From a virus: a stretch of DNA of 35,565 nt. Made by a program: the position numbers and the translations under genes. The notes beneath the pieces were generated by a model. It saw only the letters and a list, made by a program, of their open reading frames with translations, searched no databases and had not been told where the DNA came from. This document shows, one piece after another, positions 3,112 to 35,471 of this stretch. Each line of letters opens with the position of its first letter. Position 1 is the first letter of the stretch. The stretch spans positions 1 through 35,565 of the IMG/VR virus record IMGVR_UViG_3300027138_000013; one strand, given 5' to 3'.

Positions 3112-3185
3112 TGCCCGTTAGTATAAAAGTAGAATATCTCACTGACACTGAGAAGAAGTTGGAGCGTTACCAACACGGGCAACCA
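3112..3185 (+). tRNA. tRNA-Val(GAC), variant D/T loops
   Basis: Acceptor TGCCCGT/ACGGGCA, discriminator A, CCA. Anticodon arm TCTCA-CTGACAC-TGAGA. D-loop with AAAAG; T-arm GTTGG-AGCGTTA-CCAAC. A reading frame runs through this tRNA into the next gene; the tRNA shows that the upstream part of that frame is not coding. Confidence 0.93.
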
Positions 3186-3825: not shown

Positions 3826-3903
3826 GCACTCGTAGCTAAACTGGACTAAAGCAACTCGGTTCTAACGAGAAGATTGCAGGTTCGAATCCTGCCGGGTGTG
3901 CCA
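3826..3903 (+). tRNA. tRNA-Arg(TCT)
   Basis: Acceptor GCACTCG/CGGGTGT, discriminator G, CCA. Anticodon loop GTTCTAA on CTCG/CGAG. Canonical D-loop with GG; T-arm GCAGG-TTCGAAT-CCTGC. Confidence 0.9.
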
Positions 3904-3907
3904 TTTT

Positions 3908-4091
3908 GACGGAGTAGTGTAATGAAAAGCACACTGCAGAAGTTAGCTGTGGCTGGGATGATCCAATTAATTTTGGGTAAATGTAAACGACGACCAAGGC
4001 AAGCCGTATTAGCCCCATGATTGTCATGTCGATAAGCTCCAGTAAGTTAATAAAACTTGAGGTTTGGGTTTGATTCCCAACTCTGTCACCA
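3908..4091 (+). tRNA. tRNA-like gene with about 100-nt internal insertion
   Basis: Acceptor GACGGAG/CTCTGTC, discriminator A, CCA. D-arm GTGT/ACAC with loop AATGAAAAGC; T-arm TTGGG-TTTGATT-CCCAA. The T-loop has U56 where C is nearly universal, and the D-loop has G18-A19 rather than GG, a compensatory A19-U56. Between D- and T-arms lie about 130 nt instead of about 25. AAGTT (3940-3944) may pair with AACTT (4054-4058) around a 109-nt loop; alternatively TGCAG-AAGTTAG-CTGTG is the anticodon arm and the insert sits in the variable region. Anticodon not assigned. The insert contains its own hairpins (for example CATGA-TTG-TCATG). Confidence 0.6.
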
Positions 4092-4092
4092 T

Positions 4093-4170
4093 GCTCACAT
4101 AGCTAAATTGGAATAAAGCACTTCGGTCCTAACGAAACGATTGAAGGTTCAAATCCTTCTGTGAGCACCA
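4093..4170 (+). tRNA. tRNA-Arg(CCT)
   Basis: Acceptor GCTCACA/TGTGAGC, discriminator A, CCA. Anticodon loop GTCCTAA on TTCG/CGAA. D-loop has GG; T-arm GAAGG-TTCAAAT-CCTTC. Similar overall to tRNA-Arg at 3826. Confidence 0.9.
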
Positions 4171-4176
4171 ATTTTT

Positions 4177-4250
4177 GCCTCCATAGTATAAAAGCATTAC
4201 ACATCATTGGTAATGATGAAACGTAGGAGCGTTACCTACTGGAGGCTCCA
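4177..4250 (+). tRNA. tRNA-Thr(GGT), variant D/T loops
   Basis: Acceptor GCCTCCA/TGGAGGC, discriminator U, CCA. Anticodon arm CATCA-TTGGTAA-TGATG. D-loop with AAAAGC; T-arm GTAGG-AGCGTTA-CCTAC. Confidence 0.92.
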
Positions 4251-4333: not shown

Positions 4334-4408
4334 TGTCACGTAGCGTAATAGAATCGCAGCTGGTTCTGACCCAGAAGATTGTAGGTGCAAGTCCTACCGT
4401 GACAACCA
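4334..4408 (+). tRNA. tRNA-Gln(CTG), variant D/T loops
   Basis: Acceptor TGTCACG/CGTGACA, discriminator A, CCA. Anticodon loop TTCTGAC on CTGG/CCAG. D-loop TAATAGAAT with AG; T-arm GTAGG-TGCAAGT-CCTAC (G55). Confidence 0.9.
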
Positions 4409-4415
4409 ATTTTAT

Positions 4416-4490
4416 GTCTCGTTGGTCGAGTAGTTAGGCAGTTGTCTGCAAAACAACATTAGGTTGGTGCAAATCCAACACGGGACTCCA
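4416..4490 (+). tRNA. tRNA-Cys(GCA), variant D/T loops
   Basis: Acceptor GTCTCGT/ACGGGAC, discriminator U as usual for Cys, CCA. Anticodon arm GTTGT-CTGCAAA-ACAAC. D-loop GAGTAGTTA with AG; T-arm GTTGG-TGCAAAT-CCAAC. Last tRNA of the first array. Confidence 0.92.
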
Positions 4491-7799: not shown

Positions 7800-8269
7800 G
7801 ATTGGACAGTAAGTTCTTTGAAGTAAAAAGATTTTGGGGGGTTTGACCTCCATATAAGATAGTGAGTAGTAATACTCATGAAAGAGGTAGTCCCCTAACG
7901 GACCCTCGCCTGGGCAACTAGGACACTCAAACAAATGGCAAAGTCTGTGACTTTCATCCAAAAGGTGGAAGTATATCCGACGATGGTGAGAAAAAGAACA
8001 TGTGTGGGTAACACTGGCATATGTTCGGTAACGGTGCCGCCGACCACTGCTCACAGCAAAACATCCAAGAGTAAGATTTAAGCCAAAGATACGGGTGTGA
8101 GACCGCAATCAAATGCTCGTATGTAGATTGATAGAAAGAGGACCAAAGGCCAACCAAGGGACTTGATCTTGAAAATCGGTGAAGTATCCGCAAGAGAAAC
8201 ACAAATGGCGTGTCGCATATTGTATCCCAAAAGGATATGAAACGACAAACAACGCACGTCATTGTTAGG

Positions 8270-13910: not shown

Positions 13911-13994
13911 CGGCATGTGATGTAACAGAAGCCATGCGAGTCTTAGAAGCTCGTCCCGAAAGGGGTGTAGGTGCAAGTCCTATCATGCCGACCA
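13911..13994 (+). tRNA. tRNA-Leu(TAG), variant D/T loops
   Basis: Acceptor CGGCATG/CATGCCG, discriminator A, CCA. Anticodon loop CTTAGAA on GCGAGT/GCTCGT. A true long variable arm CCC-GAAA-GGG is present. D-loop with ACAG; T-arm GTAGG-TGCAAGT-CCTAT (G55). Confidence 0.9.
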
Positions 13995-14361: not shown

Positions 14362-14455
14362 GGAAGGTAGACGAATAGTTAGTTAGTCGTAGCAGTTTGC
14401 TAAACTGCCGTGGCCTAAAAAACCACTGAGGGGGCAGCACCCTCACCTTCCGCCA
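14362..14455 (+). tRNA. tRNA-Ser(GCT), variant D/T loops
   Basis: Acceptor GGAAGGT/ACCTTCC, discriminator G, CCA. Anticodon arm GCAGT-TTGCTAA-ACTGC. Long variable arm GTGG/CCAC. D-loop with AATAGTTAG; T-arm GAGGG-GGCAGCA-CCCTC (G54, G55, G58). Confidence 0.92.
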
Positions 14456-14461
14456 CTTTAC

Positions 14462-14537
<76 letters not shown>

Positions 14538-15013: not shown

Positions 15014-15043
15014 TTGACACAAGCGATCCTACGCTGAGATAAT
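15014..15043 (+). promoter_or_regulatory. sigma70-type promoter of second large RNA
   Basis: TTGACA, 18-base spacer, GATAAT. It begins seven bases after the CCA of tRNA-Gln. Confidence 0.7.
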
Positions 15044-15049
15044 ATCTTA

Positions 15050-15650
15050 GAGGAAGTTCGATGCTGCACAGCAGATGATTGGGAGAATGTAAGTTAACTT
15101 CATATTGCCCACAATGATTAAAAGATTGCGATTCCGTGGAAGCAAGGAGCAGTCCGGTTAACCTTAATTTGATAACACCACATATTAGCAGTAATCCTAA
15201 ATAACCCGAGTGTAGTGCTGCACGTTTGAAAGGATAGGTTGGAGCAGTTGTTTTTAACGAACAACCAGACAATGGTAGAGGTTTGAGCTTGGCTAGGTCC
15301 GAAACAATAACCAACGGCTGTGTTCGGCTAATAATCTGTGGGTTAAATATGCCCATAAAACCGCCAAGATGTCTGAGATAAATGTAGGAATAGAACAGAA
15401 CATCGGCTACGGCTGTGTCAAAGATCTTGTGGTGGTTTAGCCATGGCGTGAGGGACACGATACACCCCTGTATGTCTGACCCGGACGAATCTGTTCCAGA
15501 TAGGATAGGGTTGAATTTAAATTTGATCGTTAGTGTATAGAATTATAGCACGATACCCATAGGAGGGTATAGGAGACTGAAGTTGACGAGATAGACATTT
15601 GGAACGCCCAGTGAAATCCTCGTATATTCGCAAGTCACGGTCATCCAATT
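15050..15650 (+). ncRNA. large structured noncoding RNA (ROOL/GOLLD-like candidate)
   Basis: About 600 nt without a credible gene, flanked by its own promoter upstream and a gene promoter (15658) downstream. Many strong local helices are visible: CTGC/GCAG (15064-15074), a long hairpin at 15081-15110, GTTGTT/AACAAC near 15246, GACA..TACA/TGTA..TGTC near 15455-15477, and ATACCC/GGGTAT (15553-15570). A GTGAAATCC segment (15611) recurs in the 832-935 RNA and near the 3' end of the giant RNA (8718). Size and position beside tRNAs and tmRNA in a phage suggest the ROOL/GOLLD type of ornate RNA. Open frames on the minus strand are interrupted by tRNAs and look like chance. Ends are approximate. Confidence 0.55.
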
Positions 15651-15657
15651 TTAACAG

Positions 15658-16110: not shown

Positions 16111-16495
16111 GGGCGCGTTCAGGTTTCGATTTAAGGATGCGTTCATGCTAGGCACGTAGAGGATGATAGTTGGCCTCTTTAAACGTCTATCAAAACATAA
16201 CTGCTGAAGAAAACGTGGTTAGCTATGACTTCTCTTATGGAGAAGTTGCAGCACTCGCAGCCTAATTAAAGGTTGCACACTTGACTAATGACTGTTCGAT
16301 AGTTGGTTGGGTGTTATCATCGAACTATAATTGGAATGATTGATTTGCTCATCCAATCTACCATTCTGTAAATCTTAAGAAACGGATTTTTGATGATTTA
16401 GATTCTGTTTCCTATCAAATTCAAATCATACAAGCGTGTAGTCTGGTATGGATCACTTCTTAAAGACGCGAGTTCGATTCTCGCCGCGTCCACCA
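16111..16495 (+). ncRNA. ssrA: transfer-messenger RNA (tmRNA)
   Basis: One-piece tmRNA of 385 nt. The tRNA-like end is GGGCGCG/CGCGTCC with the G3-U70 pair required for alanylation, T-arm GCGAG-TTCGATT-CTCGC and encoded ACCA. The tag frame runs 16203-16265 from a GCT resume codon and encodes AEENVVSYDFSYGEVAALAA followed by TAA; the ALAA end is the classical protease-recognition tail. tmRNA frees stalled ribosomes and marks the unfinished protein for degradation, with SmpB (not seen here, so presumably host-supplied). A terminator follows. Confidence 0.97.
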
Positions 16496-33072: not shown

Positions 33073-33474
33073 ATGGCTAAACAGATACTTGGGCTTAAGT
33101 TACCGTTGAGATTGGGTCAAGATGGATATTTTGAAACCAATACTGCTACTATTGATCAAGTATCTTCAAACATAAGAAACTTGTTGTTGACCAAACCAGG
33201 CGAAAGACGATTCAACAATGAGTTTGGATCTGGATTGTATTACCTATTATTTCAACAAAATGAATTGGAAGTCAATCCAGGCATTATTGTCGATGTAGTC
33301 CAACGTGATATCAACAAATTTTTGAATGGTGTGATCGTTAATGATGTGAAGGTAAAAATAGCATCCACTCAAAACGAAAATACTGATGCAAATACGATAT
33401 TTATAAGTGTGGTGTTCACTTATAACAAGATTACCTCTACTACTGAGGTGGAACTTACTAATAACAGAATCTAA
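33073..33474 (+). CDS. gp25: baseplate wedge protein gp25 (GPW/gp25 family)
   Basis: A 133-aa protein, matching T4 gp25 (about 132 aa). Signature strands: GLKLPLRLGQDGYFETNT, then the diagnostic NIRNLLLTKPGERRFNNEFGSG (about 35-56), in which the E-R-R-F-N pattern and the preceding LLL-T-K-P-G turn define the family. It forms part of the contractile-tail baseplate inner wedge and is homologous to TssE of type VI secretion. Its stop overlaps the gp6 start (TAATG). Confidence 0.94.
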   Translation: MAKQILGLKLPLRLGQDGYFETNTATIDQVSSNIRNLLLTKPGERRFNNEFGSGLYYLLFQQNELEVNPGIIVDVVQRDINKFLNGVIVNDVKVKIASTQNENTDANTIFISVVFTYNKITSTTEVELTNNRI

Positions 33475-35471
33475 TGGCACAAATAATTAACAAGACTTTT
33501 AGAGCAAATACTAAAGACGTAAATTACGTTAATAGAGATTTTGCATCTTTGAAGCAACAATTGATCGATTTCACTAAACAATACTACCCACAAAGTTATA
33601 GAGATTTTAGTGAGAGTTCGCCTGGTCAAATTTTCATTGAACAAGCCGCATATGTTGGTGACATATTGTCATATTATACCGATCAACAGTTCAAGGAAAG
33701 TTTTATTCAGTTTGCCACGGATAGAAGAAATTTGATCAACCAAGCTAGATATTTGGGATACAAACCAAAGGTCACATCAGCAGCTGCAACTGATCTTGAA
33801 CTGTTTCAACTAGTTCCAGCCAAAAGAGTGGGCGAGATAGACGGTGAATATGTTCCAGATGACACCTATTGTTTGATATTGAAACCATTCACAGAATTGT
33901 CCAGTGTTTCTGGAGTTCCATTCTTGATTGAAGAAAGTGTAGACTTTAGTCAAGACACGGTATTTTCACCAAGAGAAGTGTCTGTGTATAACCGTGATGA
34001 AACTGGAGCACCACTATTTTACTTGATCAAAAAGACTGCAAAAGCATATGCAGGTAAACTTGTAGTCAAACAAGTAAGTATAGGAACCGCAACACCATTT
34101 TTAGAAATTAAATTGGACGCTACTGATGTATTGAAAGTAGCAAGTATAGTTGATAGTAACAATAACAATTACTATGAAGTTCAATATCTAGCACAAGAAA
34201 CAATACCAATTTCTGTTGACAACGTTCCATTAACAAATCAAACCTTGTCGAAGTATAGAGGTGAAACGCCTAAGTTGTTGAAGTATTTGAGAACCGAGAA
34301 TCGTTTTATCACCACGATTGATGAAAACAATTCAACATACATTCAGTTTGGTGCAAACACTGAAAACTTCGATAACACTGTGATCATACCAAATCCTTCA
34401 AACGTGGGTGTGGGTTTGTCTAATTTAGATAATCTTAACATCAGTTTGGACGGAACAAACGTGTTGAAGAGCAATTCATATGGTGTATCTCCATCGAACA
34501 CAATATTGACCATCACTTATATTGTTGGTGGCGGCGTAAATTCTAACGTCAACTCTGGAGAAATCAATACAATTAGTGCGGTCGGATTGATGAACGATAT
34601 TACTGGATTAACAGATAGTCAAGTTACATTGTTCAATAATATCAAGAACTCTTTGAGAGTAAACAACCCACTTGCAGCAACTGGTGGAGATGGTCCAGAA
34701 ACCGACGAAGAAATACGTCAAAATGCGATTGCAAATTTTTCATCTCAAAATCGTATCGTAACTGAGGAGGACATACTTCTTCGTGTATACGCAATGAGTC
34801 CACAATTTGGTAGTATAGCTAAAGCGTTCGTTCAATCAAATGCTACTAGACAAATTGCATATACTGGATTGATCAGTGGTGTTATCACAGGTTCAGCTGC
34901 TCAAAATGAGTTGTTGAATTTGAACCCATTGAATCCACTTGATCGTAGAAAGTTTTTGGAGTCAAACAATCCATTCACAAACAACTTGTATATTCTAGGA
35001 TACAACAGTGATAAGAAACTCACTCCATGTAACGAAGCAACACTTTTGAATTTGAAGAACTACTTGAGTCAATACAAGATTTTGACTGATAGATTCAATG
35101 TGATTGACGGATACATTATCAATATCGGCGTTGAATTCAAGATCACAGTCTTTGCTGGTTTCAACAAACGTGATGTGTTGAATGAATGTATTGCATCTGT
35201 TCAAGCATTTTTCAATATTGACAACTGGGGGTTCAATCAACCAATCAATTTAAGTCAATTAACCTTTGAAATAATGAAAAATGAAGGTGTTCAATCTGTG
35301 ACCGAAGTTACAATCAAAAATTTGACTTATGATACTGATGGAGTTCAATATTCGCCTATAGCTTATAATATTGATATTGCTACACAGAACAATATCGTAT
35401 ATCCATCAAAAGACCCTTCAATATTTGAAGTCAAGTTCCCAGATACCGACATTAAAGGATTAGTGGTATAA
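33474..35471 (+). CDS. gp6: baseplate wedge protein gp6 (baseplate J-like)
   Basis: A 665-aa protein, near the T4 gp6 length. The N-terminus has the family opening (VNYVNRDFASLKQQLIDFTKQ, then YRDFSESSPGQIFIEQAAYVGDILSYYTDQQF, whose G-x-x-F-I-E-x-x-A-x-x-x-D core is typical), and residues about 430-460 include ATGGDGPETDEEIRQNAIAN, the E-E-I-R block common to baseplate J proteins. It builds the wedge ring that contacts sheath and gp25. It starts one base into the gp25 stop codon. Confidence 0.93.
   Translation: MAQIINKTFRANTKDVNYVNRDFASLKQQLIDFTKQYYPQSYRDFSESSPGQIFIEQAAYVGDILSYYTDQQFKESFIQFATDRRNLINQARYLGYKPKVTSAAATDLELFQLVPAKRVGEIDGEYVPDDTYCLILKPFTELSSVSGVPFLIEESVDFSQDTVFSPREVSVYNRDETGAPLFYLIKKTAKAYAGKLVVKQVSIGTATPFLEIKLDATDVLKVASIVDSNNNNYYEVQYLAQETIPISVDNVPLTNQTLSKYRGETPKLLKYLRTENRFITTIDENNSTYIQFGANTENFDNTVIIPNPSNVGVGLSNLDNLNISLDGTNVLKSNSYGVSPSNTILTITYIVGGGVNSNVNSGEINTISAVGLMNDITGLTDSQVTLFNNIKNSLRVNNPLAATGGDGPETDEEIRQNAIANFSSQNRIVTEEDILLRVYAMSPQFGSIAKAFVQSNATRQIAYTGLISGVITGSAAQNELLNLNPLNPLDRRKFLESNNPFTNNLYILGYNSDKKLTPCNEATLLNLKNYLSQYKILTDRFNVIDGYIINIGVEFKITVFAGFNKRDVLNECIASVQAFFNIDNWGFNQPINLSQLTFEIMKNEGVQSVTEVTIKNLTYDTDGVQYSPIAYNIDIATQNNIVYPSKDPSIFEVKFPDTDIKGLVV

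Follow-up and report, generated by a model that had tools for sequence, protein, structure and literature searches.

Does a tRNA-like gene with U at position 56 of its T-loop keep the tertiary contact between D-loop and T-loop through a matching change at position 19, although G19-C56 is 'found in all canonical tRNAs' (PMC10412605)? The question is raised by a gene at positions 3908-4091 (+) of the window, by which is meant the whole stretch of 35,565 nt that was analyzed, part of the genome of an environmental, T4-like phage. Genes for tRNAs are concentrated in two parts of the window (about 0-4.5 and 13.6-16.5 kb), which also holds a GOLLD RNA and a tmRNA, and the protein encoded by its baseplate ORF (33474-35471) is at most 41% identical to those of cultured phages (INPHARED). 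The 19-56 pair caps the stack of bases at the tRNA elbow, and the RNAs that bind the elbow, as well as the ribosome, largely stack on it (PMC4810234). G19-C56 is treated as nearly invariant, so small alignments carry no covariation signal for this pair. In all likelihood, the locus is a tRNA-like gene with a compensated A19-U56 elbow pair in place of G19-C56.

Structure of the interrupted gene

The target gene lies within the phage tRNA array, following tRNA-Arg(TCT), which ends at 3903, after a gap of 4 nt and preceding tRNA-Arg(CCT), which starts at 4093, by a gap of 1 nt. An initial annotation of the window had described an interrupted tRNA here with U56 in the T-loop TTTGATT. Its coordinates are exact, its arms pair, and the gene, at 184 nt, exceeds tRNA length by about 108 nt. 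The parts are as follows.

3908..3914, +, 5' strand of the acceptor stem (1-7), GACGGAG; pairs 7/7 with 4081-4087
3915..3916, +, U8 and A9; U8 is pairable with A14 (3921)
3917..3932, +, D-arm GTGT-AATGAAAA-GCAC; 13-22 is U-G; A14 at 3921, A15 at 3922, G18 at 3924, A19 at 3925
3933..4063, +, anticodon arm, variable region and interruption of about 108 nt; the 3'-most base, U48 (4063), is pairable with A15
3934..3952, +, candidate anticodon arm A, CUGCAG-AAGUUAG-CUGUGG; the loop would read GUU and lacks U33
4043..4059, +, candidate anticodon arm B, UAAGU-UAAUAAA-ACUUG; lacks U33
4064..4080, +, T-arm TTGGG-TTTGATT-CCCAA; 5/5 stem; U54 at 4069, U55 at 4070, U56 at 4071, G57 at 4072, A58 at 4073
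4081..4091, +, 3' strand of the acceptor stem, CTCTGTC, discriminator A73 and encoded CCA; 7/7 pairing

The D-loop had been quoted as ATGAAAAG, which is shifted by one base relative to the loop given above, and the assignment of G18-A19 holds nonetheless. It is unchanged in an alternative D-stem, GTGT/ACAC with a 10-nt loop; the GTGT/GCAC stem is also used by the tRNA-Asn at 81-154. The core contacts U8-A14, A15-U48, G18-U55 and U54-A58 are intact, and the combination of A19 (3925) with U56 (4071) is the sole departure from the standard tRNA core. The molecule is presumed to fold accordingly, with the D-loop entering the T-loop and G18 placed between G57 and A58, where it would contact U55. 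A19 would then pair with U56 and cap the stack A58/G18/G57/A19-U56, so that the flat face of the elbow would be kept, and the insert of about 108 nt would leave both loops untouched.

Chance was evaluated for units with a 7/7 acceptor stem, a 5/5 T-stem, a 4-bp D-stem and an insert, using dinucleotide-shuffled sequence of 17 kb as the control. Such insert-bearing units are expected 0.07 times per shuffled 17 kb and occur twice in the real sequence (700-825 and 3908-4091); the array position and structure of the target gene exceed chance. ARAGORN does not call the gene with introns allowed or not, and it has no match to the Rfam tRNA family (RF00005).

Covariation of positions 19 and 56

Transfer RNAs with U or A at position 56 were collected, with the D-loop left free, from IMG/VR and from one genome per GTDB species. 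Among the matches listed, 153/164 U56 tRNAs have GA at 18-19 (84/93 in IMG/VR and 69/71 in GTDB genomes), and GU is found in 37 of the 43 with A56 (21/23 and 16/20, respectively). The core 2x2 table of position 19 against position 56 from these listed matches gives a Fisher p of about 1e-37, and when each 75%-identity cluster of them has one vote, the 71 clusters divide into 47 GA/U, 15 GU/A and 9 others. The blind rule for reading 18-19 has some freedom in loops that lack GG, a freedom absent from the test with a fixed D-arm. In that reverse scan, with G18-A19 fixed and position 56 free, U is found in 92 and C in 5 of the 97 matches listed. The GG and GU comparison sets are rough controls, since their loci were originally retrieved for different purposes, in part by selecting for U or A at position 56: G18-G19 D-arms in the fetched loci have C56 in 31/34 (U in 2, A in 1), and G18-U19 D-arms have A56 in 4/4.

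These counts bear out the Watson-Crick exchange of G19-C56 for A19-U56 that the initial annotation had proposed. The free mixing of A19-C56 and G19-U56 that it had named as counter-evidence is not seen, such mismatches amounting to about 5-6% among the matches listed, and nearly identical Trp(CCA) tRNAs of a single group account for several of the viral G19-U56 cases. Rare mismatched intermediates are what a stepwise path predicts; A19-U56 would have arisen from G19-C56 by paired substitution, probably with G19-U56 or A19-C56 as the intermediate.

Bacterial chromosomes carry the swap as well, and the genome scans rule out that it is specific to phages. Among 198 evenly drawn Bacteroidota genomes, 17 have a tRNA of this kind, and all matches (23/23) combine U56 with GA. 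Cultured bacteria with chromosomal A19-U56 include Chitinophaga filiformis (two Arg(ACG) genes), Puteibacter caeruleilacunae (three Gly(TCC) genes) and Helicobacter (Arg(GCG)). Since binding partners largely stack on the pair (PMC4810234), an A-U pair plausibly serves as well, which would explain its tolerance in chromosomal tRNAs. On these sequence comparisons, A19-U56 in the target gene is read as a further case of repeated natural compensation and not as a phage invention. The predicted pair is a widespread compensated variant and so does not exclude the gene from the tRNAs. No description of a natural 19-56 swap as a general pattern was found in the open-access literature.

Paired changes among related phages

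Clade relatives were found via the baseplate protein and their tRNA regions were fetched, from which about 120 tRNAs were extracted with a structure-based finder. U56 with GA is present in this clade at L066 4161-4236 (-), L069 14281-14356 and L073 2814-2889 (-), and the best clade matches of all three carry GG and C56 at the homologous positions.

Arg(ACG): A19-U56 in L066, G19-C56 in L004 at 5906
Ala(TGC): A19-U56 in L069, G19-C56 in the window at 14462
Val(TAC): A19-U56 in L073, G19-C56 in L072 at 10670

The opposite orientation, U19-A56, is found at L066 5467-5542 (-), whose nearest relative is the tRNA-Phe of the window (78%) with G19-C56. Two further homologues, L004 5824-5899 and L066 (-) 3995-4071, are 82% identical and carry U19-A56 and A19-U56, respectively. 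Both are odd tRNAs, with enlarged anticodon loops and G18 together with G55.

For the target gene, the only true homologue among the 40 + 4 related records searched is on a metagenome contig, 3300021961_000114 (G002), and differs by one substitution, at position 4003 inside the insert; INPHARED phages contain no DNA relative of the region. Because this sole homologue is nearly identical, the gene's own lineage offers no covariation, and the test is drawn from other tRNAs. The comparison of homologues in related phages, suggested by the initial annotation, therefore yields the paired changes in Ala, Arg and Val tRNAs, and for the target gene itself a near-identical copy. Its own double change from G19-C56 is presumed, no G19-C56 homologue being known here. 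Reading 19-56 as a tertiary pair is correct for tRNAs in general and, very probably, for the target gene as well.

A decaying tRNA gene, killed by the insertion and with U56 and A19 complementary only by the coincidence of independent point changes, is an unlikely alternative. Neither candidate anticodon loop has U33, the insert is unstructured by energy (z 0.29), and ARAGORN and Rfam do not call the gene, all of which decay would account for. Decay should break pairs, however, and pairing is still possible throughout the acceptor stem (7/7), the T-stem (5/5) and the five core contacts, while the single difference in the independent contig falls in the insert.

The companion pair 18-55

When the D-arm is fixed as A18-G19 in IMG/VR, position 55 is G in 38/41; with G18-G19, it is U in 22/22. 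The initial annotation had offered A19-U56 as independent support for a tertiary reading of 18-55, which is fair, and this direct test succeeds too. The tRNAs of the window with G55 (loops TGC, AGC and GGC) are all readable as A18-G19. Nearly all of those with U55 have G18-G19, the tRNA-Ile at 2566 being ambiguous with a D-loop of six bases. The G55 tRNAs with A18-G19 are located at the following positions.

81-154, 1864-1938, 2296-2374, 2645-2723, 2810-2883 and 3112-3185, G55 with A18-G19
4177-4250, 4334-4408, 4416-4490, 13911-13994 and 14362-14455, further G55 with A18-G19

Their sequences support a swap from G18-U55 to A18-G55 in these tRNAs, and L066 5551 may represent C18-G55. The array has about a dozen A18-G55 tRNAs beside the A19-U56 target, as would be expected if selection had re-coded the elbow pairs, for instance by favoring evasion of a host enzyme that recognizes G18, G19, U55 or C56. 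Such selection is very unlikely, given that A19-U56 is present in ordinary bacterial chromosomes (Chitinophaga, Puteibacter, Helicobacter and 17/198 Bacteroidota genomes) and that drift via wobble intermediates is enough.

The interruption

The compensated elbow belongs to an interrupted tRNA-like gene, and the place of its insert depends on which of the two candidates is the anticodon arm. With arm A (3934-3952), the variable region would contain the insert; with arm B (4043-4059), the insert would separate the D-arm from the anticodon arm. The label 'tRNA-like gene' was chosen because U33 is absent from both candidate loops, ARAGORN and Rfam give no match, and the folding energy of the insert is no better than that of shuffles (z 0.29).

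Several leads on the place and nature of the insert were assessed. Exhaustive deletion followed by ARAGORN gave 196 'tRNAs' from 1085 deletions and is unusable for locating the insert. The two hits of the insert pattern ACGACGACCAAGGCAAGCC lie in unrelated coding sequence (L002 and L003) and are attributed to chance. The motif ATGAT..GGTAAATG, common to this insert and that of the tRNA-Phe at 1748, was considered as an intron core and matches unrelated coding sequence equally often. Group I introns have a conserved catalytic core and usually exceed 200 nt; the insert, at about 108 nt, matches no family of this kind in Rfam at E values up to 10. No bulge-helix-bulge, as expected at the junctions of an archaeal-type (BHB) intron, is evident in the folds of the gene, for which there are two candidate placements of the insert. 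A tmRNA identity was rejected on C3-G70 instead of G3-U70 and on the lack of a tmRNA match in Rfam, and the real tmRNA of the window is at 16111-16495.

It is possible, though tentative, that the target gene encodes a stable tRNA-shaped non-coding RNA that is not an adaptor, its elbow and ends acting as a scaffold and processing signal for an inserted domain. The elbow and the acceptor with CCA are complete beside no decodable anticodon loop, and the array also holds units with tRNA-like ends (2884-2992 and 1134-1310) and the GOLLD RNA. Against this, no conserved structure is demonstrable in the insert from one homologue and a fold z of 0.29, and there is no Rfam match. An RNA of this type is compatible with a real A19-U56 pair. 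A broader proposal is highly doubtful: membership of the target gene in a class of 'scaffolded' phage RNAs whose complete tRNA elbow and acceptor bear a non-tRNA domain instead of a decoding arm, together with lineage-wide re-coding of 18-55 and 19-56 that would preserve normal docking and alter reading by host enzymes that recognize the elbow.

Other elements in the window and its relatives

The tRNA-Asn(GTT) at 700-825 of the window has a 51-nt insert in its anticodon loop (ARAGORN) and an insert-free relative at L004 6536-6610. In a diverged tRNA-Asn, L072 3731-3856, 1 of the 51 insert positions differs, against 9 of the 75 exon positions; near-identity of the insert alongside exon divergence points to a tiny intron that is either mobile or constrained. 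The tRNA-Phe(GAA) genes at 1748-1850 of the window and L004 7834-7937 share a 30-nt anticodon-loop insert, CTATGATGGTAAATGACACCGTAAAAGTGT, and a paralogue at L004 7268-7356 has a variant insert. A tRNA-Lys at L066 (-) 7810-7936 carries a 16-nt anticodon-arm segment, GGGCAACTGGCTTTTC, in tandem repeat.

Between tRNA genes, at about 1134-1310 of the window and about 4286-4465 of L072, lies a conserved RNA that has no annotation and is about 180 nt long; read by eye, its two copies show apparently compensatory differences (CTAC/GTAG versus CTAT/ATAG). In the second tRNA array, about 640 nt at about 15018-15655 are apparently non-coding, match nothing in Rfam at E up to 1 and are perhaps another large phage RNA. 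The tRNA-like unit at about 2884-2992 (CACCAAC...GTTGGTG-CCA), also present in L004, has no recognizable T-loop. Finally, a tRNA-Tyr(GTA)-like gene at 944-1031 has a D-region, CCCTAT, complementary to ATAGGG in its long variable arm, and a weak match to tRNA-Sec under the gathering score.

Significance and comparison with known systems

The natural double changes (A19-U56, U19-A56, A18-G55 and possibly C18-G55) are evolutionary evidence for the contacts between D-loop and T-loop. They also provide a test set for distinguishing the enzymes and ribosomal sites that read base identity from those that read shape. Tools for tRNA detection that expect canonical D- and T-loops will miss or mis-score such genes.

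Compared with the canonical elbow (G19-C56 and G18-Psi55; PMC4810234), the target gene has the same predicted docking, with U54-A58, G18-U55, A15-U48 and U8-A14. It differs in the A-U at 19-56, the insert of about 108 nt and the candidate anticodon loops that lack U33. In human mt-tRNA-Ser(UGA), an engineered A19:U56 rescues the aminoacylation (serylation) lost on breaking the pair (PMC10412605). The same A19-U56 is there a functional replacement for G19-C56, engineered in one tRNA with one synthetase, whereas the phage case is natural. The Arg(ACG) of many Bacteroidota, with D-loop AACTGAATA and T-loop TTTGAAT, has A19-U56 like the target gene, but these are uninterrupted chromosomal tRNAs. 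Within the window, the tRNA-Asn at 700-825 is likewise an array tRNA with extra sequence and, unlike the target gene, has a canonical GG/TTC elbow, a clear insertion point, an ARAGORN call and an intron-free allele.
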